Shown here in pieces: positions 6,361 to 32,101 of a stretch of DNA of 42,649 nt (position 1 is its first letter; each line of letters opens with the position of its first letter). The DNA lies in contig JAEINR010000054.1 of assembly GCA_016342325.1 (NCBI GenBank), forward strand, positions 1-42,649. Reading direction: 5' to 3'. The notes under the pieces were generated by a model. The model was not told the origin of the DNA. It saw nothing but the letters and a program-made list of their open reading frames with translations, and did no database searches. The position numbers and the translations under genes were made by a program. Source of the DNA: Desulfobacterium sp. (GTDB lineage: Bacteria; Desulfobacterota; Desulfobacteria; Desulfobacterales; Desulfobacteraceae).

Positions 6361-6365
6361 AATGG

Positions 6366-14558: not shown

Positions 14559-14566
14559 TCCGGAAC

Positions 14567-16006: not shown

Positions 16007-16018
16007 AGGAGAAAAAGA

Positions 16019-16576
16019 ATGACACAACAACGGGTTTCCCATGCTATCCAGGAGGATCCATGGTTTCGGTTCATGGTGCAATGGATTCAAAAAATAGACA
16101 AATTCAGTGAGTTACAGGGGAAGGTGTTCTCTTTTCTGATTCTAATCGCGACCTTTCAAATCTGCTACGAGCTGGTGCTGAGATATGTTTTCAATGCGCC
16201 CACTGTTTGGGGGTTGGAACTGACGGTTTATCTGTGTGGCATCACCTATATCATGTCCGGGGCCTTTGCCGAACGCTACGGGGTCCACATTCGTGTGGAT
16301 GTGTTTTATAATAAATGGCCCCTGCGAAACCGGGCCTGGTTTGATCTGCTGGTCACGGATATGTTGCTTTTCTTCCTCACTTCCGTGCTCATATGGCACG
16401 GTGGCCTCTGGTTCTGGGAGGCTGTTACCCAGGGGTTGACCTCGGGCACCATTTGGGATCCGCAGATATGGCCCATGCGCCTCGTGATTGTCATGGGGGC
16501 TTTTTTTCTGATGATCTCATCGGTTCCTAAATTTTTCAGGGATTTTGCCCTGGCTGTGTGGAATGTAAAACTTTAA
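16019..16576 (+). CDS. TRAP transporter small permease (DctQ family)
   Basis: A 185-residue membrane protein with four helices. DctQ motifs are RYVFNAPTVWGLELTVYL (about residues 55-72) and the positively charged GVHIRVDVFY (about 89-98). A cytoplasmic N-terminal extension of about 35 residues precedes the first helix. The protein braces DctM and docks the receptor. The start lies 12 bases after the DctM stop behind AAGGAGAAAAAG. It is the last gene of this TRAP unit; the next gene has its own promoter. Confidence 0.9.
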   Translation: MTQQRVSHAIQEDPWFRFMVQWIQKIDKFSELQGKVFSFLILIATFQICYELVLRYVFNAPTVWGLELTVYLCGITYIMSGAFAERYGVHIRVDVFYNKWPLRNRAWFDLLVTDMLLFFLTSVLIWHGGLWFWEAVTQGLTSGTIWDPQIWPMRLVIVMGAFFLMISSVPKFFRDFALAVWNVKL

Positions 16577-16580
16577 ATTT

Positions 16581-16695
16581 GATTGGTTAATTTGCTTGAC
16601 AGATCATTTTCGAATCTGTATGAACTGAAATATCTAATCAAATATCTAATCAGATTTTAGATTAGATATTTGATTGAATATCTAAATGCTATAAT
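16581..16695 (+). promoter_or_regulatory. Promoter and TCTAATCA operator of the 2-oxoacid oxidoreductase operon
   Basis: TTGACA (16596-16601), a 17-base spacer and TATGAA (16619-16624) form a good sigma-70 promoter. Five bases downstream begins a palindromic block: 16-bp perfect arms 16636-16651 and 16660-16675 around an 8-base loop, built from repeated ATCTAATCA units. A second -10 match, TATAAT, is at 16690-16695. The same spacing of promoter and ATCTAATCA operator occurs at 29187-29248 before the aminotransferase, with ungapped similarity starting at GATTG (16581 and 29172). Confidence 0.75.
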
Positions 16696-16719
16696 GAAAC
16701 ACACAATGGAGAAAAAAAG

Positions 16720-17835
16720 ATGGCTTTGTCTTTTATGGAAGGAAACGAGGCGGTTGCAAGGGGCGCCATGGCTGCGGGCTGCACCTTTTTTGCAGGATAT
16801 CCCATTACACCTGCCACCACTGTTTTTGCCAACATGTTGAAGATGCTGCCGCCCAAGGGCGGAATCTGCGTCCAGGGTGAGGATGAGATCGCCTCCATGG
16901 GATACTGCATCGGTGCTTCCATGGCGGGACGGAAGGTGCTGACGGCCACGTCCGGGCCCGGACTCAGTCTTTACAGCGAACAGATCTCCTTTGCCGTGGG
17001 AAGCGAAATTCCCCTTGTCATCGTGGATGTTCAGCGGTTGGGTCCGTCCACGGGGTCGGCAACCCGGGGGGCGGACAGCGATATTCAGTTCATGCGGTGG
17101 GGCAACACCGGCGGTGTGCCCGTGATTGTCCTTGTTCCCAAGGATGCCCTGGATTGTTATCTGCTCACCATCAAGGCGTTCAACTATGCCGAAGAATTCA
17201 GGTGTCCTGTGTTCATCGCCTCCAACAAGGAGATCGGCATGACCAAGGAGAGCGTGGATCTTGATGCGGTGGATCTGCCGGAACTTGTGGAGCGCAAAAA
17301 ATACCAGGGGGATAACTATGTTCCCTTTGAGGCCGCACCTGATGCTGCGCCGGATTTTCTTCCCATTGGCGGTGAGACCCTGGTTCGTCAGACCTCTTCC
17401 ACCCACGGTACGGACGGCTATATCACCATTGATCCTAGGGTTATCGAGGCGAACCAGGAGCGGTTGCAGAACAAGATCCTTGCCGCAGAAGAGCGGATCA
17501 CCCTGTACGAGGAGAACCACCGGCCCGGGGCCAAGACCCTGGTGATCAGCTATGGGGTGACCTCCCGGGCGGTTGATGATGCCTGTGACCTCCTTGGGGA
17601 AAAAGGGGTGCCCGTGTCCTCCCTGACCCTGAAAAGCCTGTGGCCCGTGCCGGAAACCCTGCTTGTCAAAGCGGCTGAAAACTATGACCGCATTGTTGTC
17701 ATTGAGATGAACCTTGGCCAGTACCTGGGGGAAATCCAGCGGGTTCTTTGTGGCAAGAACATTAAATTTTACGGCCAGATGAACGGCATTCTGATCAAAC
17801 CTGGAAAGATTATGGAGGTGATTGAAAATGACTAG
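16720..17835 (+). CDS. 2-oxoacid:ferredoxin oxidoreductase alpha subunit (KorA-like)
   Basis: A 371-residue alpha subunit: an N-terminal pyrimidine-binding domain (FFAGYPITPATT, VQGEDEIASMGYCIGASMAG, TSGPGLSLYSEQI, residues about 22-90) and a C-terminal transketolase-like domain II (VISYGVTSRAV near 268, MNLGQYLGEIQRV near 333). With the beta-gamma protein that follows it oxidatively decarboxylates a 2-oxoacid with CoA, giving an acyl-CoA, CO2 and reduced ferredoxin. It lacks a ferredoxin domain. GGAGA lies 8 bases before the ATG. Position directly before glutaryl-CoA dehydrogenase genes, and a shared ancestral operon with an aminotransferase, suggest 2-oxoadipate as substrate (product glutaryl-CoA). 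2-Oxoglutarate or another 2-oxoacid remains possible. Confidence 0.9.
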   Translation: MALSFMEGNEAVARGAMAAGCTFFAGYPITPATTVFANMLKMLPPKGGICVQGEDEIASMGYCIGASMAGRKVLTATSGPGLSLYSEQISFAVGSEIPLVIVDVQRLGPSTGSATRGADSDIQFMRWGNTGGVPVIVLVPKDALDCYLLTIKAFNYAEEFRCPVFIASNKEIGMTKESVDLDAVDLPELVERKKYQGDNYVPFEAAPDAAPDFLPIGGETLVRQTSSTHGTDGYITIDPRVIEANQERLQNKILAAEERITLYEENHRPGAKTLVISYGVTSRAVDDACDLLGEKGVPVSSLTLKSLWPVPETLLVKAAENYDRIVVIEMNLGQYLGEIQRVLCGKNIKFYGQMNGILIKPGKIMEVIEND

Positions 17836-19123
17836 TCTTCTGAATGCGGAACGTCCGCCTGTGTTTTGTCCCGGTTGCACCCATGAACGCATTACCAAGG
17901 AACTTGACAAGGCCCTGGAAAAAAAGGGGATGGCGCCGGACAAGACGGTGATCGTCAGCGACATCGGCTGTTCCGGTCTGTTTGACACCTTTTTTAACGT
18001 CCATGCCCTCCATGGCCTCCACGGCCGCGCCCTCACCTATGCCCAGGGGCTTAAGCTTGCAGATCCCACCCTTAACGTGATTGTTACCATGGGGGACGGG
18101 GGGCTTGGCATCGGAGGCGCCCATGTGCTGGCGGCCTGTCGGAAGAACCTTGATATTACCTTGATCGTTCTCAACAACTTTAATTTTGGCATGACCGGTG
18201 GCCAGTATTCGTCCACCACCCCCACGGACGCCACGGTGGGGTCGGAATTTCTCAACCATGCCGAAGTGCCCATTGATATCTGTGCCGTTGCCGAAAGTGC
18301 CGGGGCCACCTATATCAGCCGGTGCTCGGGCCATGACACGGCCTTGGCAGATATCATGGTCGCGGCCATGGACCACAAGGGGTTTTCCCTTGTGGAGACC
18401 CTGGGCATGTGTACCGGCAGATACACAAAGAAAAATCAGCTCACCCCCAAGGCCCTTGATGCCATGATCGAAGCCATGCCCAGAAAGAACGGGCTGGTGG
18501 CAAAGAACCAACGGGCGGAGTACGGAGAGGCCTACCGGGAGCTTGCCCTTGGACAAACCCATTTCCCCATGCCCGTGACCATTGAAAAACAATTTGATCC
18601 CACCGCGCCTAAACGGGAGGAGATCGTCATCCTCGGCAGCGCGGGTATGCGCATCGTGACCGCCGGGGACATGGTTTGTTACGCCGGCATGGCCGCCGGC
18701 ATGAATGTCTCCATGAAGAATGATTACAACATCACCGTGCTCCGGGGCCAGTCCGTGAGTGAAATCCTGATCTCCCCTGAAAAAATCGGTTATGCCGGTA
18801 TTGAAGCCCCCACCGTGGTGGTGGCCATCAGTGACGAAGGGGTTCAGCGGCGGAAGGCCATGTTTGCCACCCTTTCCCCGGACACCTTTGTGCTCAAGGA
18901 GAAGAGCGTCTCCATTCCCGAAACCCCGGCCATGGTGGTTGAGATCGATTTCAAGGCTCTCAAGGTTAAGCGCCATGACTGGGCCTTGGCTTCCCTGGGC
19001 GTTCTGGCAAAAGAGGGCAGGGGGCTCACCCCGGATTTGCTCGCCTATGCCGTGGGCGCGCGTTTTAATAAAAAGGTGGCAGCCATTGCCATGGAAACCC
19101 TTGGAAAAATATCCGGGAGCTGA
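17828..19123 (+). CDS. 2-oxoacid:ferredoxin oxidoreductase, fused beta-gamma subunits
   Basis: A 431-residue fusion. Residues 1-250 are the thiamine-diphosphate beta subunit: cluster cysteines C14, C17, C48 and C195 (FCPGC, DIGCSG, GMCTG), the GDGG motif at 89-92 and NNFNFGMTGGQYS near 116-128. Residues about 275-420 are the gamma domain (VILGSAGMRIVTAGDMVCYAG, LRGQSVSEILIS). Electrons leave through the single [4Fe-4S] cluster to ferredoxin. ATG 17828 overlaps the alpha stop by 8 bases and has GGAGG upstream; a TTG two codons earlier is less likely. The last 45 bases before its stop (19076-19120) recur as a relic at 29288-29332 before the aminotransferase. The stop is followed directly by an aminotransferase relic. 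Confidence 0.9.
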   Translation: MTSLLNAERPPVFCPGCTHERITKELDKALEKKGMAPDKTVIVSDIGCSGLFDTFFNVHALHGLHGRALTYAQGLKLADPTLNVIVTMGDGGLGIGGAHVLAACRKNLDITLIVLNNFNFGMTGGQYSSTTPTDATVGSEFLNHAEVPIDICAVAESAGATYISRCSGHDTALADIMVAAMDHKGFSLVETLGMCTGRYTKKNQLTPKALDAMIEAMPRKNGLVAKNQRAEYGEAYRELALGQTHFPMPVTIEKQFDPTAPKREEIVILGSAGMRIVTAGDMVCYAGMAAGMNVSMKNDYNITVLRGQSVSEILISPEKIGYAGIEAPTVVVAISDEGVQRRKAMFATLSPDTFVLKEKSVSIPETPAMVVEIDFKALKVKRHDWALASLGVLAKEGRGLTPDLLAYAVGARFNKKVAAIAMETLGKISGS

Positions 19124-19125
19124 CC

Positions 19126-19209
19126 CTGCCCCAGTAGTCCGACCCATTGACTAAGCGGAAAAAGGCCAGTACCACCAAGGGGCTTGTCCAGGTGAGGGAA
19201 CTTGCCTGA
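19126..19209 (+). pseudogene. 27-codon relic of the class III aminotransferase gene
   Basis: Aligned without gaps to the 5' end of the aminotransferase at 29338, bases 19121-19195 match 29333-29407 at 51 of 75 positions by hand count. The start codon has become CTG (19126) and codon 4 is TAG. Still readable is the pattern RKKxSTxK, found in the intact protein at residues 11-18. After about 23 codons the sequence jumps to the 3' end: the stop TGA at 19207-19209 lies in frame and sits in CCTGACACGGTGA, exactly as in the intact copy (30647-30659). The relic is therefore the gene minus about 410 internal codons. It cannot encode a functional enzyme. Confidence 0.8.
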
Positions 19210-19270
19210 CACGGTGAATTTTAATATTACAACCAATAGATAATTTTTTAAAAAAAAGTGAGGAAATATA
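19205..19270 (+). repeat. Duplicated downstream leader, copy A
   Basis: CCTGACACGGTGA (19205-19217) and the following bases up to the next start codon resemble 30647-30711, the leader before citrate synthase. The distance from the repeat to the next ATG is 66 bases here and 65 there. CAATAG and the A-rich ribosome region are shared. It marks the right end of a duplicated operon unit. Confidence 0.7.
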
Positions 19271-20434
19271 ATGGATTTCAGACTCTCAAAAGAGATGACA
19301 ATGCTGCAAAAGGCCGTAAGGGAATTTGTAAAAAAGAAGATCACCCCCAATGCCGATGCCTGGGATGACGCCAACTATTTTCCCTACAAGGAGGCGGTGC
19401 TGCCCATGGGAGAACTTGGGTTCTATGGCACGGTCATTCCTGAGGAGTACGGGGGAGAGGACATGGGATGGCTGGCTGCCATGGTCGTCACCGAAGAGAT
19501 CGCAAAGGGATCAAGCTCCCTCCGGGTCCAGGTGAACATGCAGGTTTTGGGATGCGCCTATACCATTTTCCGCTACGGCACTGAAGCGGCTAAGAAACGA
19601 TACATTGAGAAGCTCTGCACGGCCGAATACCTGGGCGGTTTCGGCATCACCGAGGCCGATGCCGGTTCCGATGTCATGGCCATGTCCACCACAGCCGAGG
19701 ACAAGGGCGATCACTATCTGCTCAACGGCTCAAAGACCTGGATCTCCAATGCCGCCATTGCCGACGCCCTGATCTGTTACGCCTATACGGACAAGGACAA
19801 GGGCTCCCGGGGGTTGTCGGCCTTTGTGATCGAGCCCAAAAACTATGAGGGTATCAGCACCTCGGCCCTGGAGAAGCTCGGTTCCCATTCCTCCCCCACA
19901 GGGGAAGTGTTTCTGGACAATGTAAAGGTGCCCAAGGAAAACCTTTTGGGCAACCCCGGGGACGGTGCAAAAATTTTGTTCAGCTCTTTGAATCACACCC
20001 GGCTGTCTGCGGCCGCAGGCGGTGTGGGGCTTGCCCAGGCCTGCCTGGATGAGTCCATCAAATACTGCAATACCCGGAAACAGTTTGGTAAACCCATCGG
20101 GCAGTTCCAGATGAACCAGGATATGATCGCCCAGATGGCCGCCGATATTGATGCCGCCCGTTTCATGGTTTACCGGGCCGCCGTTGAGAAGGATAACGGC
20201 AACCTGAACAACGGCCTTGATGTGGCAAAGGCCAAGTACCTGGCCGGAGAAGTGGCCACCAAGGCATCCAACTTTGCCATGAGAATCCTTGGCGCCTATG
20301 GCTACTCCACCGAGTATCCCGTGGCCCGTTTCTACCGGGACGCTCCCACCTACAGCATGGTCGAGGGATCGGCGAACATCTGCAAGATGATCATCGCCCT
20401 GGATCAACTGGGCATTAAAAAAGCCAACAGATAG
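19271..20434 (+). CDS. Glutaryl-CoA dehydrogenase, predicted non-decarboxylating type
   Basis: A 387-residue flavin acyl-CoA dehydrogenase: N-terminal helical domain, FGITEADAGSDVMAMSTTA and TWISNAAIADALICYA (FAD contacts, about 122-175), RKQFGKPIGQFQMNQDMIAQM (about 276-296) and the catalytic base E365 in SMVEGSANI. In decarboxylating glutaryl-CoA dehydrogenases such as human GCDH a Tyr precedes this Glu (NTYEGT). In the non-decarboxylating Desulfococcus multivorans enzyme the Tyr is Val, and Val364 is present here. Glutaryl-CoA would thus be oxidised to glutaconyl-CoA, with electrons passed to ETF. Immediately downstream come the four genes of glutaconyl-CoA decarboxylase, which independently supports the call. 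ATG 19271 follows GTGAGGAAATATA. Confidence 0.85.
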   Translation: MDFRLSKEMTMLQKAVREFVKKKITPNADAWDDANYFPYKEAVLPMGELGFYGTVIPEEYGGEDMGWLAAMVVTEEIAKGSSSLRVQVNMQVLGCAYTIFRYGTEAAKKRYIEKLCTAEYLGGFGITEADAGSDVMAMSTTAEDKGDHYLLNGSKTWISNAAIADALICYAYTDKDKGSRGLSAFVIEPKNYEGISTSALEKLGSHSSPTGEVFLDNVKVPKENLLGNPGDGAKILFSSLNHTRLSAAAGGVGLAQACLDESIKYCNTRKQFGKPIGQFQMNQDMIAQMAADIDAARFMVYRAAVEKDNGNLNNGLDVAKAKYLAGEVATKASNFAMRILGAYGYSTEYPVARFYRDAPTYSMVEGSANICKMIIALDQLGIKKANR

Positions 20435-20446
20435 GGGAGGCGATCC

Positions 20447-20581
20447 GTGAACCAGACAATGGTGATTTTTCTATCCGGCATTGGCGGGGTGTTTGTCGGA
20501 ATGGCACTCCTCTACGGCGCCATCAAGCTCAATACCCTTGTGACGGAGTTGATACTCAAAAAGGGAAAGGATAAAAAGTAA
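20447..20581 (+). CDS. gcdD: Small OadG/GcdD-like subunit of the Na+ pump
   Basis: A 44-residue protein that starts with GTG (20447) behind a strong GGGGAGG six bases away. Its TAA shares one base with the ATG of the beta subunit (TAATG). It has one membrane helix ([20 protein letters not shown], residues 6-25) and a basic tail ending KKGKDKK. This matches the small single-span gamma/delta subunit of biotin-dependent sodium-pump decarboxylases, which holds the complex together. Relatives are usually about 80-110 residues, so this is a minimal form without the Pro/Ala-rich linker. The translational coupling and location make the assignment good despite the length. Confidence 0.8.
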
Positions 20582-21696
20582 TGGATTTTATTTTGTTCCT
20601 GGTCAAAACAACGGGGTTTCTCCACCTGACCCCGGGCATGGTCTTGATGTGGTGCATCGGTATCGGCCTCATCTATCTTGCCATCGCTAAAAACTATGAG
20701 CCGTTGCTGCTGTTGCCCATCGGGTTCGGAATTCTTCTTGCCAACCTTCCCCTGGCAGGGCTGATGGTCCCGGAGGAGGGCCTGTTGTGGAAATTTTATC
20801 ATTATGGCATCCAGTGGGAGGTGATCCCGCCGTTGATTTTTCTCGGCCTTGGCGCCCTCACTGATTTTGGTCCCATGCTGGCCCGGCCTTCCTTGCTGTT
20901 TCTGGGGGCCGGGGCCCAGGCCGGGGTCTACATCACCTTTTTTGTGGCCCAGTCCATGGGGTTCACCATCCATGAGGCCGCCACCATCGGTATCATCGGC
21001 GGAGCGGACGGCCCCACCACCATCTTCCTTGCAAGCAAGCTTGCCCCCCATATGCTGGGGGTCTGCGCTGTTGCCGCATATTCCTACATGGCGCTGGTGC
21101 CCATTATTCAGCCCCCGATCATGCGGTTTATGACCACGGAGGATGAGCGGAAGATACGGATGAAGAAGACCCGGAAGGTCAACAAACTGGAAAAGATTTT
21201 CTTTCCGGTTGTGGCCGCCCTGTTGATCATCCTTCTGATCCCTGCGGCCGCCCCCCTGATCTCCATGTTCATGCTTGGGAATTTGTTCCGGGTGGCCAAG
21301 GTGGTGGAGCGATTGACACATGCCTCCCAGAACGAACTGCTCAACATTGTCACCATCTTCCTGGGGCTTCCCGTTGGTGCCACCATGAATGCCGAGGTGT
21401 TTCTCCAGCCCAAGGTGCTCTTTATCTTCTGCCTGGGCCTTGTGGCTTTTTCCATCAGCACGGCCACGGGGATACTGCTGGCCAAGATCATGAATCTTTT
21501 TCCCGGGGATAAGATCAATCCCCTGCTGGGGGCTGCCGGGGTGTCTGCCGTGCCCATGGCAGCAAGGGTGGTCCACAAGGTGGCCCAGGAAGCGGATAAG
21601 AAGAATTATCTTCTGATGTATGCCATGGGACCCAACGTGGCCGGGGTGATCGGCACTGTTATTGCCGCCGGGATCTTCTTGACCCTCCTCAAATAA
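20581..21696 (+). CDS. gcdB: Glutaconyl-CoA decarboxylase beta subunit (OadB-type Na+ channel)
   Basis: A 371-residue membrane protein with about nine to eleven helices. The family signature [20 protein letters not shown] (D143 being the essential channel aspartate) is intact, as are [24 protein letters not shown] (about residues 305-328) and [19 protein letters not shown] near the end. It decarboxylates the carboxybiotin carried by the small biotin protein and exports Na+. The gene overlaps the small subunit by one base. With the CoA-transferring subunit at 22027 it forms a decarboxylase specific, by context, for glutaconyl-CoA. Confidence 0.93.
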
Positions 21697-21759
21697 TAGG
21701 GGGCAGGCTTAATTTAATAGGTATTAATTCAGGTATAAACATCCATAAGGAGAACAACC

Positions 21760-21987
21760 ATGAGCAAAGACGTTTTGCTTAGTGCGCCCATGATGGGAAA
21801 AGTAATACAGATTGATGTCAACCCTGGTGACAGGGTGGAGGAAGAAGATGAGGCCATCGTAATCGAGGCCATGAAAATGGAGACCCCCATCTATATCCCC
21901 TGTGACGGAACGATTTCAAAGGTCAACGTAAAGGTCGGGGATACCGTGGAAGAGGATGACCTGCTCCTGTCCATTGCGCCGGAATAG
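21760..21987 (+). CDS. gcdC: Biotin carrier subunit of the Na+-pumping decarboxylase
   Basis: A 75-residue biotinyl domain with almost nothing else: EAMKMETP centres on the biotin-accepting K39, followed by the GDTVEEDDLLLSI hairpin. It shuttles CO2 as carboxybiotin from the carboxyltransferase subunit to the membrane subunit. The Acidaminococcus GcdC is about twice as long owing to an Ala/Pro linker; that linker is missing here. The start follows AAGGAGAACAACC. It lies 63 bases after the beta subunit and 39 before the carboxyltransferase. Confidence 0.92.
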   Translation: MSKDVLLSAPMMGKVIQIDVNPGDRVEEEDEAIVIEAMKMETPIYIPCDGTISKVNVKVGDTVEEDDLLLSIAPE

Positions 21988-22026
21988 GAGAGGAAACTAC
22001 GATTACCACTTATCCAGGAGACGATT

Positions 22027-23760
22027 ATGAGACCGTATTTTGAAAAAATGCCTGAATTCGGCAAGGCCCTGAAAAAGGGGCAGATCAAACGGGGCGAGGA
22101 GAATGCCCTGGACCTCAAGGCCGTGGAGACGGAGATCGACGCGGCCGTTGACGTCATTAAAAACGCCGGCTTTTCCGAAGAGAAGATCAATGCCCGGGGC
22201 CAGATGACCGTGTGGCAGCGTCTTGACTACCTGGTGGACAAGGGGACCTGGTCTCCTTTGCACCTTTTATATAATCCTGCGGATAACTCCGAGGGCACCA
22301 CCAATGTGATCGACGGCCTGGGCAAGATCTCCGGCCGGTGGGCCGTGATCATCGGCTTTGATAACAAGGTGATGGCCGGGGCCTGGCTTGCGGGACAGGC
22401 TGAGAACATCCTCAGGGTCACCGATCTTGCCAAGCGGCTCAACATTCCCCTGGTCTGGCTTGTCAACTGCAGCGGGGCCAAACTCACCGAGCAGGAGCAG
22501 TTCTATGCCAACCGCCGGGGGGCCGGTGCGCCGTTCTACCGCCATGCCGAACTCAACCAGCTGGGCATCCCCGTGCTTGCCGGCATCTACGGCACCAACC
22601 CGGCCGGCGGCGGCTACCAGAGCATCAGTCCCACCATTTTGTTTGCCCACAAGAATTGCAATATCGCCGTTGGCGGCGCGGGCATTGTCAGCGGCATGGC
22701 GCCCAAGGGTCGTTTTGATACGGCTTCGGCAGAGCAGATCATCGAAAACACCCGGCATTTCAAGAGTCATCCCCCGGGAAGCGTGGCCACCCATTACGAC
22801 GGCACCGGTTTTTTCAGGCATGTGTACGAGGAGGAGGAAGGCGTACTTGACGGGCTCAAGGAGTATATGAAGGGAATTCCAGCCTATGATCCCACATTTT
22901 TCAGGGTGGCTGAACCGGCTCAGCCCCAGTTTGACGCTGAGGATCTCTATAAGCTGCTCCCCATTGACCAGAAAAAGGTCTATGGGTTTGAGGAGATCCT
23001 GGCTCGGCTGGTGGACAACTCCGAATGCATGGAGTTCAGGCCCGATTACGGTCCCGAAGTCTACACCGGCCTTTGCAAGGTGGACGGCTTCCTCGTGGGG
23101 ATCATCGGCAATCGCCAGGGCTACCTTGGCAAAGGGTATCCTGAGTATGCCGATTATCCGGGCATGGGCGGAAAGCTCTATCGCCAGGGCATGATCAAGA
23201 TGAATGAATTCGTCACCCTGGCTGGACGGGATCGGATTCCCCTGATCTGGTTCCAGGACACCTCGGGCATTGATGTGGGGGATATTGCTGAAAAGGCGGA
23301 GCTCCTGGGCATTGGTCAAAGCCTGGTCTACTCCATCCAGCAGACGGATCTTCCCCAGATGATGGTGTTGTTGAGAAAAGGGTCGGCTGCGGCCCACTAT
23401 CTCCTGGGCGGACCCCAGGGAAATGATACCAACGCCTTTTCCATTGGTACCGCCGCAAGTGAAGTCTATGTGATGCACGGGGAAACCGCAGCCGTTGCCA
23501 TGTATTCAAGGCGCCTTGTCAAGGAGAAGGATGCGGGGCGTCCCCTGGAGCCCATCATCGAAAAGATGAACAAGATTGCCGAGGATTACAAGACGTTTTC
23601 CCGGCCGAAATATTGCGCAGAAGTCGGGTATGTGGATGAGATCGTGAAGCTGTCCGATATCCGGAAGTACATGGTCGCCTTTACCGGATCGGCCTACCAG
23701 AACCCCACCTCCATCTGTCCCCAGCACCAGATGATTTTGCCACGGATTATCAAAGGATAA
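22027..23760 (+). CDS. gcdA: Glutaconyl-CoA decarboxylase alpha subunit (carboxyltransferase)
   Basis: A 577-residue carboxyltransferase with two crotonase-like halves. Several stretches agree closely with the Acidaminococcus GcdA I recall: AELNQLGIPVLAGIYGTNPA (about residue 177), GGAGIVSGM (about 218), WFQDTSGIDVGDIAEKAELL (about 409), LGGPQGNDTNAFSIGTAA and the C-terminal ICPQHQMILPR. It transfers the carboxyl of glutaconyl-CoA to biotin, yielding crotonyl-CoA. No biotin carboxylase gene is nearby, which favours a decarboxylase over an ATP-dependent carboxylase. The ATG follows CAGGAGACGATT. A strong hairpin terminates the operon, which converges on the glutamate dehydrogenase gene. Confidence 0.9.
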   Translation: MRPYFEKMPEFGKALKKGQIKRGEENALDLKAVETEIDAAVDVIKNAGFSEEKINARGQMTVWQRLDYLVDKGTWSPLHLLYNPADNSEGTTNVIDGLGKISGRWAVIIGFDNKVMAGAWLAGQAENILRVTDLAKRLNIPLVWLVNCSGAKLTEQEQFYANRRGAGAPFYRHAELNQLGIPVLAGIYGTNPAGGGYQSISPTILFAHKNCNIAVGGAGIVSGMAPKGRFDTASAEQIIENTRHFKSHPPGSVATHYDGTGFFRHVYEEEEGVLDGLKEYMKGIPAYDPTFFRVAEPAQPQFDAEDLYKLLPIDQKKVYGFEEILARLVDNSECMEFRPDYGPEVYTGLCKVDGFLVGIIGNRQGYLGKGYPEYADYPGMGGKLYRQGMIKMNEFVTLAGRDRIPLIWFQDTSGIDVGDIAEKAELLGIGQSLVYSIQQTDLPQMMVLLRKGSAAAHYLLGGPQGNDTNAFSIGTAASEVYVMHGETAAVAMYSRRLVKEKDAGRPLEPIIEKMNKIAEDYKTFSRPKYCAEVGYVDEIVKLSDIRKYMVAFTGSAYQNPTSICPQHQMILPRIIKG

Positions 23761-23767
23761 ATATGAA

Positions 23768-23799
23768 CCGGCACCCTTACCTTACGGGAAGGGTGCCGG
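23768..23799. terminator. Convergent terminator hairpin between gcdA and glutamate dehydrogenase
   Basis: A perfect 11-bp stem CCGGCACCCTT/AAGGGTGCCGG (23768-23778 and 23789-23799) with a 10-base loop, 8 bases after the gcdA stop and 28 bases before the end of the opposing gene. Suitable for both directions, although T-runs are weak. Confidence 0.65.
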
Positions 23800-23826
23800 C
23801 GAATAGGTTAGGCTAACGTCTATCTA

Positions 23827-26800
23827 TTATTTGACAGCCCGGTGAAGGGCGCGGGTCAGGTCTGTCTCAACCTCTTCCATGAATGCATCCCATTCAAGGC
23901 CGAACTTGTAAAAGGCCATGGACGCCAGTTTCTTTGTTACGATGGCGTTTCGGTAGGCCTCCATCTCTGGGGAGTTGAGGATCTCCATGATCGCTCCATG
24001 GCCGAGGCGCTGGATCAACACCCCGGGGATGTAGTGTTCCATGATCTTTTGGACAAGGTCCTCGTCTTTAAGTATTGTGGAAATCTCCTGGTCAAGGTGG
24101 GCCTGGAGTTTGAAGATCTGTTCACTTGTTTTTTCGGAAAGATCAAACAGGGGAATGGCGGGGTCCCGCTCATGGATGTTTATGAGCATTTGGGTTTCCG
24201 CTGTTCCGTAGTCTGCCACAAGGGTTATGATGTCCTTGATCAGGGCGGATCTTGTCTTTGTATCGTTTAGCAGCTTTTCCTCATAATCCTCTCCAAAGAG
24301 AAAGCCGGTCAGCACTTCTGCAATGGAGCTTGAGAACACGCCTCCCTTGTTGGCCGTGGTGTCCTTGATATGCTTGATCCCGGTGGCAGTGGCAATGTGA
24401 CGTCGTGCCGGGTCATCAAAGAAGACATTGGCCCCCTCGACAATGAACCTGAGTTCGTTGAAGAGGGTGAGGAACGCTTTGACATTGCCCTGGTTGATGG
24501 TGTCCTTGAAACCGCCGCAGGGGATAAATGCCTGGATGTTTGCCTGTTCCATGAACCGGCGGTTGTCCGGTTCCGACAGAAAGGTGCGGTGGAACATGGC
24601 ACCGTCCTCCACAAAGGTACCGTCGGGCAGGGTGATTTTCTTTGCCGAGAGGGGCACCCTGAACCCTTCAGGACTCAGTTTGTCCTGGGGAAACGCAAGG
24701 GTATTTGCCCTGGGGGAGGAGTGGCGCATGAAGGCAAGCTTCATTAATTCCGTCCGGTCCAGTCCCTGGGGATCAAACAAGATGGAGCCCCCGTCGATGA
24801 TCAGGCAGATTTTTCCCTTATAACACTGGATCTGGTTGGCACCCAGATCCCCGTCAGGGCCGCCGGTCATCATCAGGTTGAGGTCTTCCTCCTTTTCTCC
24901 ATAATGGGCGATCAGGGTTCTGAAGGCGCTCATGATGCCGGTGGTGGTCATGCCGCTGGTGGTAATGCTCTTGCCGATCTGTTCATGGATGCTGTCCATG
25001 TCGGTTGTGACGGCAACGGAGTGACCGTTGATTTGAAGATCCGTACCCTGTTCTCCTTTTTCGATCAGGCCGAACAGGTCGCCGTTCTCCAGCAGTCCGT
25101 AGGTGTCGTGGGGAATGCCAAAGCTCTTGCCGGTGGTGATGGTGCGCCAGTATTTATACCCCCGCTCCTTTGCATGGAAGGACACACCATCCATCAACGG
25201 CGCTGTGCCCTCGTCCGGCCCGAAGAAGATCATCTCGGGCTTTCCATGGTAGTCGACAATGGCATCCTCCAAAAGCATGAGGTCCATGATCCCTTCGGTA
25301 TAGTCGTACAGGGCATCCCAGCTGTACCGTGAATAGAGGGCATGGGGCACGACCACGCCCTTGGATCCGCTTTCGCAGATATCCTTGTGCTTGAGCCGCT
25401 GGGCCTTGGGACCCAGGGCATAGTTCAATAGCACGGCATTGTCGAGCTCGGTGGCGTGGTTTGCCGGGGAGACCCGGATCAGCCGCAATCCGCCCCTTGC
25501 GATGTCGTTGGCCCGCAGATGGGTGCCCCGGGCGTAGTGGCCGTTGACAAAGAAGATGCCAAAGACAAATTGATCATATACCAGGGGATCGAGGATGGCG
25601 TTGTCAAATCGAAAGGCAAACGACCGTTTTTCCGGCTTGTAAAAATTGGTCTTCAGGGTGCAGGAGACAAGCTTGAACATGAACTTGAAGATGTCGTACC
25701 CCAGCTGCTGATCCATGAACCTTGAGGCGATGATCCGGTTGAAATCGTCGAACTGTTTAGCAAGCTCGGCCCCGGTGGGGCGGTTGGTTTGATCCGGGTT
25801 AAAGCGCCGGTCAAATAGATCGTACAGGATTTTTATGAGATCGGGATGGGCCTTGACCGTCTCCTGGATGAGGGTCGACCCGTAGGTGGATTTGTTGGAC
25901 CCGTGGAGCCGTTTGGTGAACGCATCCCTGTGATCCTTGCTGGTCAGGCTTTCAAGCACCGCCATGTCCGTTGCATTGTCCTGTTCCTTAAAGATGAACA
26001 TATGGGTGAAATCAACGGCATTTCCCGCAAACAGCATCTCATCAAAGGTCAGCTTTTCTTCAAGGTAGAGGGCGGTCACCCCGCTGATGCTAAAGGAGAG
26101 AAAGGCACAAAGGACGTTTGAGATTTCCGCTTCTTTTTTCCGTGAAATCTCTCCCAGGACATAGAGGGAACAGATGGATGAGGGCACGGCGGAGGTGGTT
26201 GAATAGGGTTCCCAATAGGCGCGCACCAGCACCAGGCCGTGATCGCTGAACAACTGTCTCAGGATGGGCAGCTGGGGGGAGTTGAAGTCGCTGTTGAACA
26301 TGAGGCGGGTTTCACCGGTTTCAGGCAGGTTGAACACCTCTATCAACGGGCTCACCGACTGTTCCGTGGCTGCAAGAAAGGTTTCATAGCGCCTTCGGGT
26401 GGCACCCGGGGTCGCGGTCAGGTCGCCGGCCAGGGCAAAGAGGTAGCGTGAATCCTTGAACTCCTCTTTTGTGTAGTCCCTGACCGTTTCCGGCCGGACG
26501 ATATAGGTGTAGTAATTGCTTTCCGGGCTGAAGTAATACTCCCGCCGGTGGCCGGATATCAAGTCCTCCAGCACCTTTTCCATGCTGTCCCGGGTTTTGC
26601 CGGTGGCAATCCGCACCCGCTGTACATCGCTGCCGCTTTCAAGGTCAAAATCAACGTGGGCCACCCGGTCATAGAGGGTTACCTTGCCGTTCTGCACCTT
26701 GATGCTGGTGGCGATGGAGGCCAACAGATGGGTTAAAGACGCTTTCTTGATGTTCTTGAAGAAGTAGTTGGGAAGGCCCAGGTCATTGAGAAGGATGCCG

Positions 26801-26958
26801 GCCGCCATGTTGATGGCGTTGGCTGTGATCAGGCCCTGGGAGGACAGATCAATGACCGCTTCATATAAAATACTGGGGTCAAGGTCAAGGTTTTTGGCAC
26901 TGTTGATGATCTCTGTTCCTTTTGGAACGGAATCTGAACGGTTGAAGGGAGTTTCCAT
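23827..26958 (-). CDS. Large (about 115 kDa class) NAD-dependent glutamate dehydrogenase
   Basis: A 1043-residue protein, much larger than the 450-residue hexameric enzymes and matching the 115-kDa NAD-GDH class. A long N-terminal regulatory part (1-440) precedes the catalytic core: HLRANDIARGGLRLIRVSP (about 480-498), ESGSKGVVVPH (about 529-539), PDEGTAPLMDG, the dinucleotide region GGPDGDLGANQIQ (about 699-711) and VEGANVFFDDPAR (about 840-852). It oxidises glutamate to 2-oxoglutarate and ammonia. Beside an aminotransferase and ALDH7 it would regenerate the amino acceptor and deliver NADH during amino-acid catabolism. ATG 26958 is preceded by AAGGAGAACCC. It is downstream of the ALDH7 gene on the same strand. 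Confidence 0.88.
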   Translation of the reverse strand: METPFNRSDSVPKGTEIINSAKNLDLDPSILYEAVIDLSSQGLITANAINMAAGILLNDLGLPNYFFKNIKKASLTHLLASIATSIKVQNGKVTLYDRVAHVDFDLESGSDVQRVRIATGKTRDSMEKVLEDLISGHRREYYFSPESNYYTYIVRPETVRDYTKEEFKDSRYLFALAGDLTATPGATRRRYETFLAATEQSVSPLIEVFNLPETGETRLMFNSDFNSPQLPILRQLFSDHGLVLVRAYWEPYSTTSAVPSSICSLYVLGEISRKKEAEISNVLCAFLSFSISGVTALYLEEKLTFDEMLFAGNAVDFTHMFIFKEQDNATDMAVLESLTSKDHRDAFTKRLHGSNKSTYGSTLIQETVKAHPDLIKILYDLFDRRFNPDQTNRPTGAELAKQFDDFNRIIASRFMDQQLGYDIFKFMFKLVSCTLKTNFYKPEKRSFAFRFDNAILDPLVYDQFVFGIFFVNGHYARGTHLRANDIARGGLRLIRVSPANHATELDNAVLLNYALGPKAQRLKHKDICESGSKGVVVPHALYSRYSWDALYDYTEGIMDLMLLEDAIVDYHGKPEMIFFGPDEGTAPLMDGVSFHAKERGYKYWRTITTGKSFGIPHDTYGLLENGDLFGLIEKGEQGTDLQINGHSVAVTTDMDSIHEQIGKSITTSGMTTTGIMSAFRTLIAHYGEKEEDLNLMMTGGPDGDLGANQIQCYKGKICLIIDGGSILFDPQGLDRTELMKLAFMRHSSPRANTLAFPQDKLSPEGFRVPLSAKKITLPDGTFVEDGAMFHRTFLSEPDNRRFMEQANIQAFIPCGGFKDTINQGNVKAFLTLFNELRFIVEGANVFFDDPARRHIATATGIKHIKDTTANKGGVFSSSIAEVLTGFLFGEDYEEKLLNDTKTRSALIKDIITLVADYGTAETQMLINIHERDPAIPLFDLSEKTSEQIFKLQAHLDQEISTILKDEDLVQKIMEHYIPGVLIQRLGHGAIMEILNSPEMEAYRNAIVTKKLASMAFYKFGLEWDAFMEEVETDLTRALHRAVK

Positions 26959-26973
26959 GGGTTCTCCTTAATT

Positions 26974-27080
26974 GGGGTCAGGCCTGGCTTATTGCCCTTT
27001 TTGCCACTCTTATCATGAACGATTGGTAAAAGCACAACAAAACAATCCTGACCCCGCCCACCACAGTTGATTAAATCAAC
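26974..27080 (-). promoter_or_regulatory. Inverted repeats between ALDH7 and glutamate dehydrogenase genes
   Basis: GGGGTCAGG (26974-26982) pairs with CCTGACCCC (27047-27055), enclosing 64 bases. Next to it lies the palindrome GTTGATTAAATCAAC (27066-27080; 7-bp arms around one A), ending at the ALDH7 stop codon. The palindrome resembles a regulator site and could give glutamate dehydrogenase its own promoter. The outer repeat could form a long hairpin in mRNA. Roles are inferred. Confidence 0.45.
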
Positions 27081-28612
27081 TAAATGTCAAACTTGATCCC
27101 CTGGGCAAGGGGGATGGTCTTTCCATAGTTGATGGTGTTTGTCTGTCTTCGCATATACCCTTTCCAGGCATCTGAACCGGATTCCCGGCCGCTGCCGGTC
27201 TCTTTTTCTCCACCAAAGGCCCCGCCGATTTCAGCACCCGAGGTGCCGATGTTCACGTTGGCGATGCCGCAGTCAGATCCCCAGTGGGAGAGAAAGGTCT
27301 CTGCCTCCTGGAGGTTGTCCGTGAAGATGGAGGAGGAGAGGCCCTGGACCACGTCGTTGTGGATGTCGATGGCATTTTCAACGTCGCCTGAATACTTGAT
27401 CAGGTAGAGGATGGGGGCAAAGGTCTCCTCCTGGACAATGGCGTAGCTGTTTTCGGCTTCGGCGATGGCCGGGGTCACGTAACACCCGGATTCAAACCCT
27501 TCGCCCTCGAGGACCTCACCGCCGGTGAGGATCTTGCCGCCCTCTTTTACAAGGGACTCAAGGGCGTTAAGGTAGTCTTTCACGGCACCCTTGTCGATGA
27601 GGGGACCCATGTGGTTGGCTTCATCAAGGGGCGTGCCGATCCTCACGGAGGCGTATGCCTTGACAAGGAGATCCTTGACCTTGTCGTAGATGGAGTCATG
27701 GAGAATCAGTCGCCGGGTGGTGGTGCACCGCTGGCCAGCTGTACCCACGGCGGAAAAGACAATGCCGGGAACAGCCATTTTGAGATTTGCTTTCGGGGTC
27801 ATGATGATGGCATTGTTGCCCCCGAGTTCCAGGATCGCTTTGCCGAACCGTTTGGCAATGAGCTCTGCCCCGTGGCGGCCCACCCGGGTGGAGCCTGTGA
27901 TGGAGATCAGGGGAAGCCTTGTGTCGTTGAGCATGGTCTCCCCAACGTCCGACCCCCGGCCGACGATCAGGGAGAAAAGGCCTTCGGGCAGATCGTTTGC
28001 CTCGATAACAGGCTTAAGGATGTTCTGAACGGCAATGGCGGTCAGGGGGGTCTTGGATGAGGGTTTCCAGATGTTGACATCTCCGCACACGGCCCCGATC
28101 ATGGCATTCCAGGCCCACACGGCCACGGGAAAGTTGAATGCGGAGATGATGGCCACGGGTCCCAGGGGATGGTACTGGTCATAGAGGCGGTGGTTTTCCC
28201 TTTCCGAATGGATGGTGGAGCCGTAGAGCTGGCGGGATTGTCCCACGGCAAAGTCACAGATATCGATCATCTCCTGTACTTCCCCCCATCCCTCCTGGAG
28301 GGATTTTCCCATTTCAGCGGAGACAAGGGCCCCCAGGGCCTCCTTGCTATCCCTCAGGGCGTTGCCGATCTGGCGGACAATCTCGCCCCGCTTGGGTGCC
28401 GGAACCTTTCTCCAGATCTTGAACGCGTCCTGTGACGTTGTAATTAATTTTTCATAATCGTCCTTGGAGGCAAGGTAGACCGAGGCCAAAAGTTTGCCGT
28501 CCGCCGGCGAAATTACATCAATTTCTCCCTGATCACAGGTGCTGTTCCAATTGAGGCCGGTTGATGACCCCTGATTTTTCTCTTTGATGCCAAGCGCTTC
28601 AAGAAATTTCAT
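27080..28612 (-). CDS. ALDH7/antiquitin-type aldehyde dehydrogenase (2-aminoadipate semialdehyde dehydrogenase)
   Basis: A 510-residue aldehyde dehydrogenase. Catalytic residues are E262 (LELGGNN) and C296 (GTAGQRCTTTR); the NAD-binding region includes GSTRVGRHG. The C-terminal part (TSGAEIGGAFGGEK, GRESGSDAWK, YMRR, INY, LAQGIKF) agrees nearly residue for residue with human ALDH7A1 (antiquitin). That family oxidises L-2-aminoadipate 6-semialdehyde to 2-aminoadipate in lysine catabolism, which fits the adjoining aminotransferase and glutaryl-CoA genes. It shares 4 bases with the end of the upstream Rrf2 regulator gene (28609-28612), so the two are co-translated. Betaine aldehyde or other semialdehydes are secondary possibilities. 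Confidence 0.88.
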   Translation of the reverse strand: MKFLEALGIKEKNQGSSTGLNWNSTCDQGEIDVISPADGKLLASVYLASKDDYEKLITTSQDAFKIWRKVPAPKRGEIVRQIGNALRDSKEALGALVSAEMGKSLQEGWGEVQEMIDICDFAVGQSRQLYGSTIHSERENHRLYDQYHPLGPVAIISAFNFPVAVWAWNAMIGAVCGDVNIWKPSSKTPLTAIAVQNILKPVIEANDLPEGLFSLIVGRGSDVGETMLNDTRLPLISITGSTRVGRHGAELIAKRFGKAILELGGNNAIIMTPKANLKMAVPGIVFSAVGTAGQRCTTTRRLILHDSIYDKVKDLLVKAYASVRIGTPLDEANHMGPLIDKGAVKDYLNALESLVKEGGKILTGGEVLEGEGFESGCYVTPAIAEAENSYAIVQEETFAPILYLIKYSGDVENAIDIHNDVVQGLSSSIFTDNLQEAETFLSHWGSDCGIANVNIGTSGAEIGGAFGGEKETGSGRESGSDAWKGYMRRQTNTINYGKTIPLAQGIKFDI

Positions 28613-29043
28613 TTAAGCTCCTTTGTATCTGAAATATGATTAATGATGTGGGACAGTTTGATCTTTTTCATTTTATCTTCAATCTCAACCTGGATTTCAC
28701 TGAAAAGATCCAGGAAGTAGTCGTTGACGATGGTGGTCTCCGCCACGGTGTTGTCCGGATTGGTGCTCACGTCCATATGAAACGCTTTTCTGTCTTCAAG
28801 GGCGCAGTAGATCTCCTGGAGATGGAGCTCTGAAGGTTCTTTTTCAAGTACAAACCCGCCGGAAGATCCCTGGATGGTTTTGAGGATGCCTTGTTTTGCA
28901 AGGGCGGAAAGATGGCGACGAAGCTTTGAGGCGTTGATACCGGTATCCGTGGATATCCTGGCGGAGTTCTGGGGTACAGGATGATGTTTGGCCAGGAAAC
29001 ATAGCGCCTTGACCGTGTTTGATAATTTGGATGATGCTGACAT
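28609..29043 (-). CDS. Rrf2-family regulator lacking cluster cysteines
   Basis: A 144-residue winged-helix protein of the Rrf2 type: KLSNTVKALCFLAKHHP (residues 6-22), ISTDTGINASKLRRHLSALA (recognition helix about 38-49), the wing TIQGSSGGFVLEK (about 56-68) and LHLQEIYCALE. Iron-sulfur sensing members carry three clustered cysteines near residues 90-105; here only C15 and C80 are present, so it probably senses a small molecule or acts without a cluster. It is divergent from the aminotransferase and overlaps the ALDH7 gene, making it the best candidate to bind the TCTAATCA operators at 16630 and 29221. That link is inference. Confidence 0.82.
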   Translation of the reverse strand: MSASSKLSNTVKALCFLAKHHPVPQNSARISTDTGINASKLRRHLSALAKQGILKTIQGSSGGFVLEKEPSELHLQEIYCALEDRKAFHMDVSTNPDNTVAETTIVNDYFLDLFSEIQVEIEDKMKKIKLSHIINHISDTKELK

Positions 29044-29061
29044 GGAAGCTCCTTTCTGTTT

Positions 29062-29080
29062 TGTTACAGTAAGGGTAACA
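29062..29080 (-). promoter_or_regulatory. Palindrome upstream of the Rrf2 gene
   Basis: TGTTAC and GTAACA (29062-29067, 29075-29080) are perfect 6-bp arms around a 7-base spacer, 19 bases before the Rrf2 start. Position and size suit an autoregulatory operator. It does not resemble the TCTAATCA sites, so it might be bound by a different protein. Confidence 0.45.
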
Positions 29081-29171
29081 TACGGAAGGAAATTTCAAAT
29101 TGCAACAGGTTTTTTATTTTTTTTCCCGGCTGAATCCAGGAGGGGGGCGGGGGTGAATAAATATTTATTTC

Positions 29172-29248
29172 GATTGAAATTTTCTCTTGACATCTGGATT
29201 TGCCCCCGGTAGATAACAAGAAATCTAATCAAATTTCTGATTAGATTT
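29172..29248 (+). promoter_or_regulatory. Promoter and TCTAATCA operator of the aminotransferase
   Basis: TTGACA (29187-29192), 17 bases, TAGATA (29210-29215), then after five bases a perfect palindrome: AAATCTAATCA (29221-29231), a 6-base spacer, TGATTAGATTT (29238-29248). Position just after the -10 suggests repression. Over 28 bases it matches the operator block at 16630-16657 at 24 positions, with identical promoter spacing. Confidence 0.78.
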
Positions 29249-29287
29249 GTATGGGCTCCGGCCATGTGACGTTGGAAAAAATACACT

Positions 29288-29332
29288 GTGGCAGCCATTG
29301 CCATGGAAACCCTAGAAAAGATGTTCAGGAGC
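29288..29332 (+). pseudogene. 45-base relic of the 2-oxoacid oxidoreductase beta-gamma gene 3' end
   Basis: These bases match 19076-19120, the last 15 codons of the beta-gamma gene, at 39 of 45 positions, including 26 identical bases at the start. The stop codon found in the intact gene is gone. The relic ends in AGGAG, which now serves as the ribosome site of the aminotransferase 6 bases downstream. Upstream similarity to the beta-gamma gene fades within about 25 bases and then joins the operator, so a deletion appears to have fused the ancestral promoter to the tail of the gene. Confidence 0.8.
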
Positions 29333-29337
29333 GGATC

Positions 29338-30651
29338 ATGTCCCAATTGACCGAATCATTGATTGAGCGAAAAAAAGAAAGCACCCCCAAGGCCCTGGCC
29401 AACCTGAATCCGATCTTCATAAAGGAGAGCCACGGGGCTGAGATCCTGGATGTGGAGGGTAACCGGTTCATCGATTTCACCTCGGGCATTGGGGTCAACA
29501 ATGTGGGCAACTCCCACCCGGCCGTTGTCAAGGCCATCAAGGCCCAGTCGGATAAGTTCCTCCACTCCTGCTTCCATGTGGTGATGTACGAAGACTATGT
29601 CACGCTTGCGGAAAAGCTGAACCAGCTGGTGCCCGTGGGGGGACCGGCCAAGACCATGTTTGCCAATTCCGGGGCCGAGGCCGTTGAAAATGCCGTCAAG
29701 ATCGCCCGGTGCCACACGAAAAAACGGTCGGTGATCTGCTTTGACAACGCCTTCCACGGCCGGACCATGCTCACCATGACCATGACCAGCAAGATACGGC
29801 CCAACAAGATGGACACGGGGGCCTGGGCCCCGGGCATCTTCAGGGTCCATTTTCCCTACTGCTTCCGCTGTCCCTGGAACCTTGAGAACCCCTCCTGCAA
29901 CATGTACTGCGGCAGCGAGTATTTTGAGCGCTATGTGTTCAAATACCAAGTGGATCCCGACGACACCGCAGCCATTATCCTGGAGCCTGTCCAGGGGGAG
30001 GGGGGATTCATTCCCGTTCCCCAAGGCTACCTTGACCAATTGAGACAGATCTGTGACAGCCATGGCATCGTCCTCATCTATGATGAAATCCAGTCCGGCT
30101 TTGGCCGCACGGCAAAGCTGTTTGCCGCCGATCATTTTGATGCAAAGCCCGATATCATCGTGAGCGCCAAATCCCTTGGCGGCGGCCTTCCCATTTCGGC
30201 TGTCACCGGGAAAACCGAGATCATGGATACCGAGAACCTTTCCGTGGGCGCCCTGGGAGGCACCTATGGGGGCAATCCCGTGGCCTGTGCCGCGGCCCTG
30301 GCCGTGCTCGAGGTGTTTGAAACAGAGAACCTTTTGGACAAGGCCCGCCAGCGGGGAGCGATCATCCGGGAACACTTCCAAGGGTTCAAGGAGCGGTTTG
30401 ATTTCATCGGGGATGTCCGGGGGCTCGGTGCCATGCAGGCCATGGAGATCGTGACAGACAGAAAAACCCTTCTGCCGGACGGTGAGCGTACCGGCCGGTT
30501 TGTGGCGGCGTGCCGGGACAAAGGGCTTTTAATCCTTTCCTGCGGAACCTTTAAGAACAACATACGAATGCTGGTTCCCCTAAGCGTGGATCTTGATCTT
30601 CTGGACGAGGGGCTTGCCATCATGGAGAGCGCCTTTATCCAAGTGTCCTGA
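29338..30651 (+). CDS. Class III (GABA/omega-amino acid) aminotransferase
   Basis: A 437-residue PLP enzyme of fold type I. Visible are ANSGAEAVENAVKIAR (phosphate site, 109-124), FHGRTMLTM, EPVQGEGG (216-223), D249 (IYDEIQSGFGR, pyridine N contact) and the Schiff-base lysine K278 (SAKSLGGGLP). A cysteine-rich insert, PYCFRCPW with two more Cys near 187-191, resembles archaeal-type omega-aminotransferases. Context suggests lysine 6-aminotransferase or an enzyme of the 2-aminoadipate step; 4-aminobutyrate or 5-aminovalerate activity cannot be excluded. ATG 29338 is preferred over an upstream in-frame ATG because AGGAG lies 6 bases before it and homology begins here. A decayed second copy lies at 19126-19209. 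Confidence 0.88.
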   Translation: MSQLTESLIERKKESTPKALANLNPIFIKESHGAEILDVEGNRFIDFTSGIGVNNVGNSHPAVVKAIKAQSDKFLHSCFHVVMYEDYVTLAEKLNQLVPVGGPAKTMFANSGAEAVENAVKIARCHTKKRSVICFDNAFHGRTMLTMTMTSKIRPNKMDTGAWAPGIFRVHFPYCFRCPWNLENPSCNMYCGSEYFERYVFKYQVDPDDTAAIILEPVQGEGGFIPVPQGYLDQLRQICDSHGIVLIYDEIQSGFGRTAKLFAADHFDAKPDIIVSAKSLGGGLPISAVTGKTEIMDTENLSVGALGGTYGGNPVACAAALAVLEVFETENLLDKARQRGAIIREHFQGFKERFDFIGDVRGLGAMQAMEIVTDRKTLLPDGERTGRFVAACRDKGLLILSCGTFKNNIRMLVPLSVDLDLLDEGLAIMESAFIQVS

Positions 30652-30711
30652 CACGGTGACGCTTAACGGTGCAAACAATAGTGGCTTTAAGATTCTTAAA
30701 AAGGAGGAACA
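30647..30711 (+). repeat. Duplicated downstream leader, copy B
   Basis: CCTGACACGGTGA (30647-30659) includes the aminotransferase stop codon and is identical to 19205-19217. Similarity continues patchily (TTAA, CAA.CAATAG, A-rich ribosome region) to the citrate synthase start. It defines the right boundary of the duplicated unit. Confidence 0.7.
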
Positions 30712-32028: not shown

Positions 32029-32092
32029 TTGACAGGGAATGTGGTCACTGATATGTCACACATGACCCTTAAGAATTCTTGTGGTATACAAG
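32029..32092 (+). promoter_or_regulatory. Promoter and TTGTATACCA-type site before racemase gene
   Basis: TTGACA (32029-32034), a 17-base spacer and TATGTC (32052-32057) suggest a promoter seven bases after the citrate synthase stop. CTTGT/ACAAG arms surround GGTAT at 32078-32092. Read on the minus strand this gives TTGTATACCA, identical to 38385-38394 in the etf promoter. Confidence 0.55.
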
Positions 32093-32101
32093 GAGATGAA
32101 A

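Follow-up and report, generated by a model that had tools for sequence, protein, structure and literature searches.

Tandem duplication-random loss (TDRL) is a mechanism of mitochondrial gene-order change. The gene cluster described here, which lies in Desulfobacterium sp. on contig JAEINR010000054.1 (assembly GCA_016342325.1; referred to below, at its full length of 42,649 nucleotides, as the window), appears to have been reordered by a comparable route. It includes the genes of a 2-oxoacid:ferredoxin oxidoreductase and of a class III aminotransferase (AT), now found at two separate loci, A and B. As in TDRL, the present order differs from the ancestral one by a single descent, gene orientation is kept and remnants lie in the spacers. 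Unlike the mitochondrial cases, the window is part of a bacterial chromosome, the unit is a catabolic operon cluster and the duplicated operators are probably still in use.

For bacteria, the passages of Brandis and Hughes (2020; PMC7055797) that set out the SNAP hypothesis envisage duplication, asymmetrical loss and fixation of a new gene order; the abstract reports that duplications form and diverge in natural isolates, and it calls for further tests. The window has in common with the scheme of those passages a segmental duplication, an asymmetrical loss from the copies and the fixation of a new order, and differs in being an end state that retains scraps of both copies. Passages of PMC8046335 invoke SNAP-type duplication with asymmetrical loss for operon rearrangements and describe the precise mechanisms as indeterminable; the proposal is the same here, but the relics in the window point to one mechanism. 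Passages of PMC10531765 argue against SNAP for the tfd clusters. The literature searched (listings, abstracts and passages) showed no example of duplication and loss in bacteria that preserves relics from each copy, nor, judged by listings, any paper on this lysine cluster. The window is best read as a naturally occurring end state of the duplication-and-loss route that the SNAP hypothesis proposes; selection by niche or dosage lies outside this reading. We estimate at about 80% the probability that the whole cluster was tandemly duplicated or amplified and then underwent complementary loss, leaving the window as the end state of such a route. While routes of bacterial gene-order reshuffling are usually inferred without traces, here the scraps of both copies, together with a scrap in an unsplit relative, make the path readable, and gene order can be seen to change without the movement of single genes.

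The earlier note on this DNA proposed that loci A and B share the same segments in the same order. At locus A, the genes of the oxidoreductase alpha subunit (16720-17835, forward strand) and of the fused beta-gamma subunit (betagamma; intact copy, 17828-19123, forward) are followed by that of glutaryl-CoA dehydrogenase (Acd; 19271-20434, forward). At locus B, the intact aminotransferase gene (29338-30651, forward) precedes that of citrate synthase (CS; 30712-32022, forward). Local alignment of 16400-19500 with 29000-31000 confirms the common segments: 19076-19180 and 29288-29392 are identical at 82 of 105 positions without a gap (E 8e-20), the match consisting of 48 bases of the betagamma end and 57 bases around the aminotransferase start, and a second match (27/35) lies at the aminotransferase stop. 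Within the window the aminotransferase-stop motif CCTGACACGGTGA occurs only at 19205 and 30647, 66 and 65 bases ahead of the next start codons, in agreement with the leader of 65-66 bases reported before.

Locus A thus carries an aminotransferase relic (19126-19239, forward) made up of a 5' piece (19126-19180) and a 3' piece with the stop and leader (19205-19239). The start codon is now CTG, a stop stands at codon 4 and about 410 codons are gone from between the pieces, the figure given previously; the translation of the relic, LPQ*SDPLTKRKKASTTKGLVQVRELA*, compares with MSQLTESLIERKKESTPKALAN at the start of the gene in B. Conversely, locus B retains a relic of the betagamma 3' end (29288-29335, forward), the first 26 bases of which are identical to A and the final bases of which include AGGAG, six bases ahead of the aminotransferase start. 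The aminotransferase stop and leader common to locus A lie at 30647-30681 (forward; the 27/35 match). Just ahead of the betagamma stub, 29246-29284 (forward) is probably the rest of an alpha leader: the B leader up to AAAAAATAC, after which the stub begins, aligns with the alpha leader of the relative G059 with a score of 17, reached by 1 of 1000 shuffles. Shuffled controls, which the earlier note had called for, leave the relics standing. With 1000 dinucleotide shuffles each, the aminotransferase 3' relic in A scores 20 against a shuffle maximum of 14, and the gap that follows betagamma in A scores 27 against the 5' end of the aminotransferase (maximum 15) and 19 against its 3' end (maximum 14).

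Could the common segments be a dispersed intergenic repeat or an artefact of assembly? The genome is a draft (6.67 Mb in 205 contigs) and the window is one entire contig, which speaks for an artefact. The copies, though, are 22% diverged rather than identical, the homology runs gene by gene and relics are also present in a relative. A 251-base query against the whole genome finds A and B only; the match is therefore not a dispersed repeat. We regard either explanation as extremely improbable.

The undivided order of operator, alpha, betagamma and aminotransferase, predicted by the earlier note for related genomes, was sought in 86 genomes of the family; the genus is represented by three of them, the window's own genome, G058 and G059. 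It is found in G078, at 67% identity. There the aminotransferase match begins 14 bases after the end of the betagamma match, with alpha and an operator-like site (12/14) ahead. G058 provides the unsplit form of the cluster, namely P6Cdh, Rrf2 and reg (all reverse), operator, alpha, betagamma, a gap, Acd, gcdB, bioD, gcdA, CS and rac, then DAO (reverse). Both aminotransferase ends are detected in its betagamma-Acd gap, the 5' end by a thin margin (score 18, shuffle maximum 16) and the 3' end clearly (25, maximum 14), while its betagamma end combined with the aminotransferase start reaches a score of 43 with B (shuffle maximum 18). By the testimony of these relics, the aminotransferase of the G058 lineage once lay between betagamma and Acd and was later lost. 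The 3' piece in G058 matches 67 columns of aminotransferase sequence lost from A; the deletion in G058 is therefore a separate one, cut at other points. The aminotransferase-like gene that G058 still has is distant (51%). No aminotransferase relic above shuffles was found in the betagamma-Acd gaps of G059, G057, G050, G002, G004 and G006.

Loci A and B are closer to one another (82/105) than either is to G058 (65/88 for B, 57/88 for A); the duplication is therefore probably younger than the split from G058. This comparison bears also on horizontal import, by which the B segment (operator, betagamma stub and aminotransferase) would have come from another species and the native aminotransferase would have been deleted later. 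What makes import worth considering is the rarity of this aminotransferase. Relatives occur in 36/86 family genomes at E<=1e-130, but besides the window only G078 and G004 exceed 54% identity, the three forming one clade (support 100/100, 72 rows), and at E<=1e-165 just 2/389 genomes of a class sample are hit, the window's own included. No relative above 53% identity appears among the best 80 of 131 hits in a scan of genome contigs, from which records closest to the window's genome may be omitted. Among those best 80 loci and 28 family loci (L049-L076, flank about 1.5 kb), L103 and L104 are the only ones with oxidoreductase homologues (32-39% identity) near the aminotransferase. Betagamma itself is present in 67/86 family genomes (E<=1e-60). 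In G004 aminotransferase and betagamma are on different contigs. Against import stand the greater closeness of B to A than of either to G058, the identity of the first 26 stub bases to A and the native aminotransferase relic in the ancestral gap of G058. We therefore hold import to be very unlikely.

Duplication with reciprocal loss, as the earlier note had it, is strongly supported by the undivided order in G078 and by the unsplit cluster of G058 with its own relic, but the unit then proposed was too small: the gene order of the relatives G058 and G059, a fragment of the Rrf2 gene and a third copy of the promoter point to the whole cluster, from the large glutamate-dehydrogenase-like gene to the racemase-like gene. 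The window reads EamA, reg, then alpha, betagamma, the aminotransferase relic, Acd, gcdB (sodium-pump decarboxylase beta subunit, GcdB-like; 20581-21696, forward), bioD (biotin carrier protein; 21760-21987, forward) and gcdA (carboxyltransferase, GcdA-like; 22027-23760, forward); next GDH (large glutamate-dehydrogenase-like protein of 1043 aa; 23827-26958, reverse), P6Cdh (L-piperidine-6-carboxylate (P6C) dehydrogenase; 27080-28612, reverse) and Rrf2 (intact copy of a regulator of that family; 28609-29043, reverse); then AT, CS and rac (Asp/Glu racemase-like protein; 32081-32842, forward), CS and rac being kept in the right copy; and finally USP and DAO. The 13 genes of the cluster form two ascending runs, with one descent, of the inferred ancestral order, and orientation and outer flanks are kept, the outcome expected of a single tandem duplication followed by complementary loss. 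Orders of 13 genes with at most one descent number 8179 of 6.2e9, a ratio that is not a probability, since genes move in blocks. The ancestral order is itself reconstructed from G058, G059 and G078. It and the outer flanks are found in G058 and G059 piecewise, no single relative having all 13 genes; G059 provides the flanks, EamA-GDH-P6Cdh on the left and USP on the right. Its order is EamA, GDH and P6Cdh (all reverse), an Rrf2 remnant, alpha, betagamma and Acd, then USP.

Two remnants absent from the earlier note stand at places expected after tandem duplication or amplification of the entire cluster with complementary loss. The Rrf2 fragment (1205-1232, forward) lies between the EamA and GntR/FCD genes of the window and is identical at 27/28 positions to 28957-28984. 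These 28 bases occur at two places in the genome only, there and in the intact gene, and the fragment probably remains from an Rrf2 copy that the left side has lost. Relics of lost genes are present in both copies, those of the aminotransferase and Rrf2 on the left and that of betagamma on the right. The third promoter-operator copy (2090-2187, with a core at 2126-2187) is decayed and lies upstream of the regulator gene, which it adjoins in the same register. Its core matches B ungapped at 36/62 positions; within the window only A matches B better, and none of 2000 shuffles scored as high; the operator retains 11/14 positions. The stretch directly upstream of the core matches G058 with a score of 70 (shuffle maximum 33). 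This copy suggests either amplification beyond two copies or a separate event tied to the 14.4-kb insert that follows it.

These findings also bear on a smaller duplication, in which operator, alpha, betagamma and aminotransferase were copied upstream of citrate synthase, both copies decayed, and the GDH-P6Cdh-Rrf2 block moved separately. It would account for every relic in the earlier note. It requires, however, that Rrf2 was copied independently a second time and came to lie next to the first insert, in the order and orientation that a tandem copy of the whole cluster gives, and it leaves the third promoter copy without explanation. We consider it unlikely.

In the whole-cluster duplication that we favour, the ancestor would have carried EamA (reverse); GDH, P6Cdh, Rrf2 and reg (reverse); the operator; alpha, betagamma, AT, Acd, gcdB, bioD, gcdA, CS and rac (forward); and USP and DAO (reverse). 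This entire cluster would have been duplicated in tandem in the lineage of the window, probably after the split from G058 and either before or after the split from G059. Further amplification may have followed, since three promoter copies remain. Each gene would then have been lost from all copies but one, the left part retaining reg, operator A, alpha, betagamma, Acd, gcdB, bioD and gcdA, and the right part GDH, P6Cdh, Rrf2, operator B, AT, CS and rac. A would have lost about 410 aminotransferase codons to a deletion. B would have lost the stretch between the alpha leader and about betagamma codon 416, which fused the operator to the aminotransferase and left within the betagamma stub an AGGAG as the ribosome-binding site of the aminotransferase; this may be the reason for the survival of the stub. 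The 14.4-kb insert, probably acquired, would have come between reg and operator A. One operon would thereby have become two behind the same inherited operator, and the two are therefore probably still co-regulated. We give even odds to a fuller version in which at least 13 catabolic genes, present in at least three tandem copies, were sorted by complementary loss, the operator giving rise to two working copies and a decayed third, and fission creating a multi-site regulon in one step. The relics, the operator copies and the gene orders of the relatives are observed directly; the tandem mechanism, a copy number above two, co-regulation by the GntR/FCD protein and lysine or 2-aminoadipate as the substrate are what we infer from them.

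It must be noted that several results weigh against whole-cluster duplication. Among the three genomes of the genus none has two intact copies, although such a stage need not have lasted. The junctions tested gave no clear relic of CS, rac, Acd or the gcd genes; a remnant of reg in B and one of alpha after the third promoter were likewise sought and not found. The gcdA-GDH junction has in common with the gcdA-CS spacer of G058 only a terminator-like hairpin (5/1000 shuffles score as high), the AT-CS junction has nothing in common with the junctions compared, and no direct repeats were identified at the duplication ends. Around the Rrf2 fragment 53/98 positions agree in register, 27 of them within the 28-mer and 26/70 outside it, and 1164-1204 does not match the Rrf2/P6C region. 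Two copies account for two promoters, not three, and the core of the third agrees with the G058 core at 26/62 positions, a score equalled in 75/2000 shuffles. The ancestral adjacency of AT and Acd is taken from the G058 relics and locus A, and the place of GDH within the duplicated unit from G059 and the window.

Promoters A and B both begin with the -35 box TTGACA (16596 in A, 29187 in B), which stands 37 bases ahead of the first TCTAATCA in each, the equal spacing noted before. Promoter-operator A (16596-16666, forward) reads TTGACA-17-TATGAA with TCTAATCA at 16633 and the full palindrome at 16645-16666; promoter-operator B (29187-29245, forward) reads TTGACA-17-TAGATA with its palindrome at 29224-29245. 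As a refinement, the perfect 22-base palindrome stands 12 bases further on in A than in B; A has overlapping sites. With its N8 spacing the exact palindrome has only these two matches in the genome; with up to 3 mismatches there are 82, not above a control of 86. A pattern with the wrong spacing, TCTAATCA-N5-TGATTAGA, gave 7 matches at up to 3 mismatches (control 3), none in the window, and was discarded. The exact operator was not found in the other 85 family genomes searched. This is a matter of pattern, because a degenerate operator, TYTRATC-N8-GATYARA, is present at 12 or more of its 14 positions in 30 of 34 distinct alpha-upstream regions (shuffles, 67/1700). The 34 come from 44 regions with an alpha match beginning before residue 5, and the consensus was composed after inspection of the regions themselves. 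In 23 of the 30 the operator lies 36-39 bases after TTGAC.

The candidate regulator is a GntR/FCD-family protein (reg; 1278-1967, reverse), encoded about 14.6 kb from operator A in the window. In 23 of a sample of 30 loci (L017-L046; flank up to 1.5 kb; drawn from 30 of the 67 betagamma-bearing genomes), such a gene stands in divergent orientation at 170-311 bp from alpha. One of the seven loci without it beside alpha is the window, and some of the others end near alpha. From this adjacency and the conservation of the motif, the GntR/FCD protein is likely to be the regulator of the TYTRATC-N8-GATYARA operator. An operon split through duplication and loss can leave its parts under one operator type, and a multi-operon regulon can arise in this simple way. 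In G059, a relative of the regulator was not found at E<=1e-40, nor an operator above shuffle level upstream of alpha. At that locus (L079) the betagamma match stops at residue 422, and operator, regulator, most of Rrf2 and the aminotransferase are gone; it may represent another decay route of the same cluster.

P6C is converted to 2-aminoadipate, then to 2-oxoadipate, glutaryl-CoA, glutaconyl-CoA and crotonyl-CoA. The gene set of the window probably serves the breakdown of lysine or 2-aminoadipate to crotonyl-CoA. Acd is of the NF045552 type (754.5 bits, curated cut-off 470) and the P6C dehydrogenase exceeds the cut-off of NF050084 (795.6 against 730); alpha, betagamma, GcdB, GcdA, Rrf2, the aminotransferase, citrate synthase and the racemase-like protein are assigned by family models. 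For the aminotransferase such models leave the substrate unsettled, with 408.6 against the 2-aminoadipate transaminase model NF049976 (cut-off 650) and 506.7 against the 4-aminobutyrate model TIGR00700, barely over its cut-off of 506.65; most of the solved structures nearest to it in sequence bear the name 4-aminobutyrate aminotransferase. By its context, the substrate is probably 2-aminoadipate. The earlier note held that both enzymes serve one pathway. The former shared operon supports this, and the annotation is consistent with it (2-aminoadipate to 2-oxoadipate to glutaryl-CoA); what the relics show, however, is that the genes were transcribed together, and not what the enzymes do. The claim is further qualified by the unsettled substrate of the aminotransferase and by the presence of Acd beside the oxidoreductase in only 5 of the 30 sampled loci, the oxidoreductase often having no Acd neighbour in the family. 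Six genomes (G000, G059, G058, G002, G057 and G050) have a P6C dehydrogenase with at least 75% identity, and in each of them betagamma is followed by Acd. G004 and G006 (completeness 72-74%) have the betagamma-Acd adjacency, but no P6C dehydrogenase match at E<=1e-180.

The junction after betagamma has received another insertion in G009 (L086), where betagamma and Acd are separated by a gene for a large glutamate dehydrogenase (69% identity to that of the window). G058 has a second Acd-gcdB-bioD-gcdA block (L078/L087, flipped coordinates 14435-19948), 96.7-98.7% identical to the first. Before it stands a CoA-transferase-like 3' segment, named by eye, and after it an apparently broken repeat of that segment, of 83% identity. 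Within the genus this is apparently a further duplication that left a decayed remnant, separate from that of the window.

The insert of about 14.4 kb (2188-16577) that separates regulator and operator A encodes a molybdopterin dehydrogenase, a PreA-like protein, an amidase and a TRAP transporter; it also carries XdhC, GntR/FCD regulators and DUF2848. It was probably acquired. Its molybdopterin dehydrogenase occurs in 11/86 family genomes and is 86% identical in G057, of another genus; neither of the two relatives from the window's own genus gave a match at E<=1e-200. Near the end of the contig, a proline-racemase-like frame (41933-42580) of 215 residues matches positions 1-211 of a 335-residue model and is truncated.

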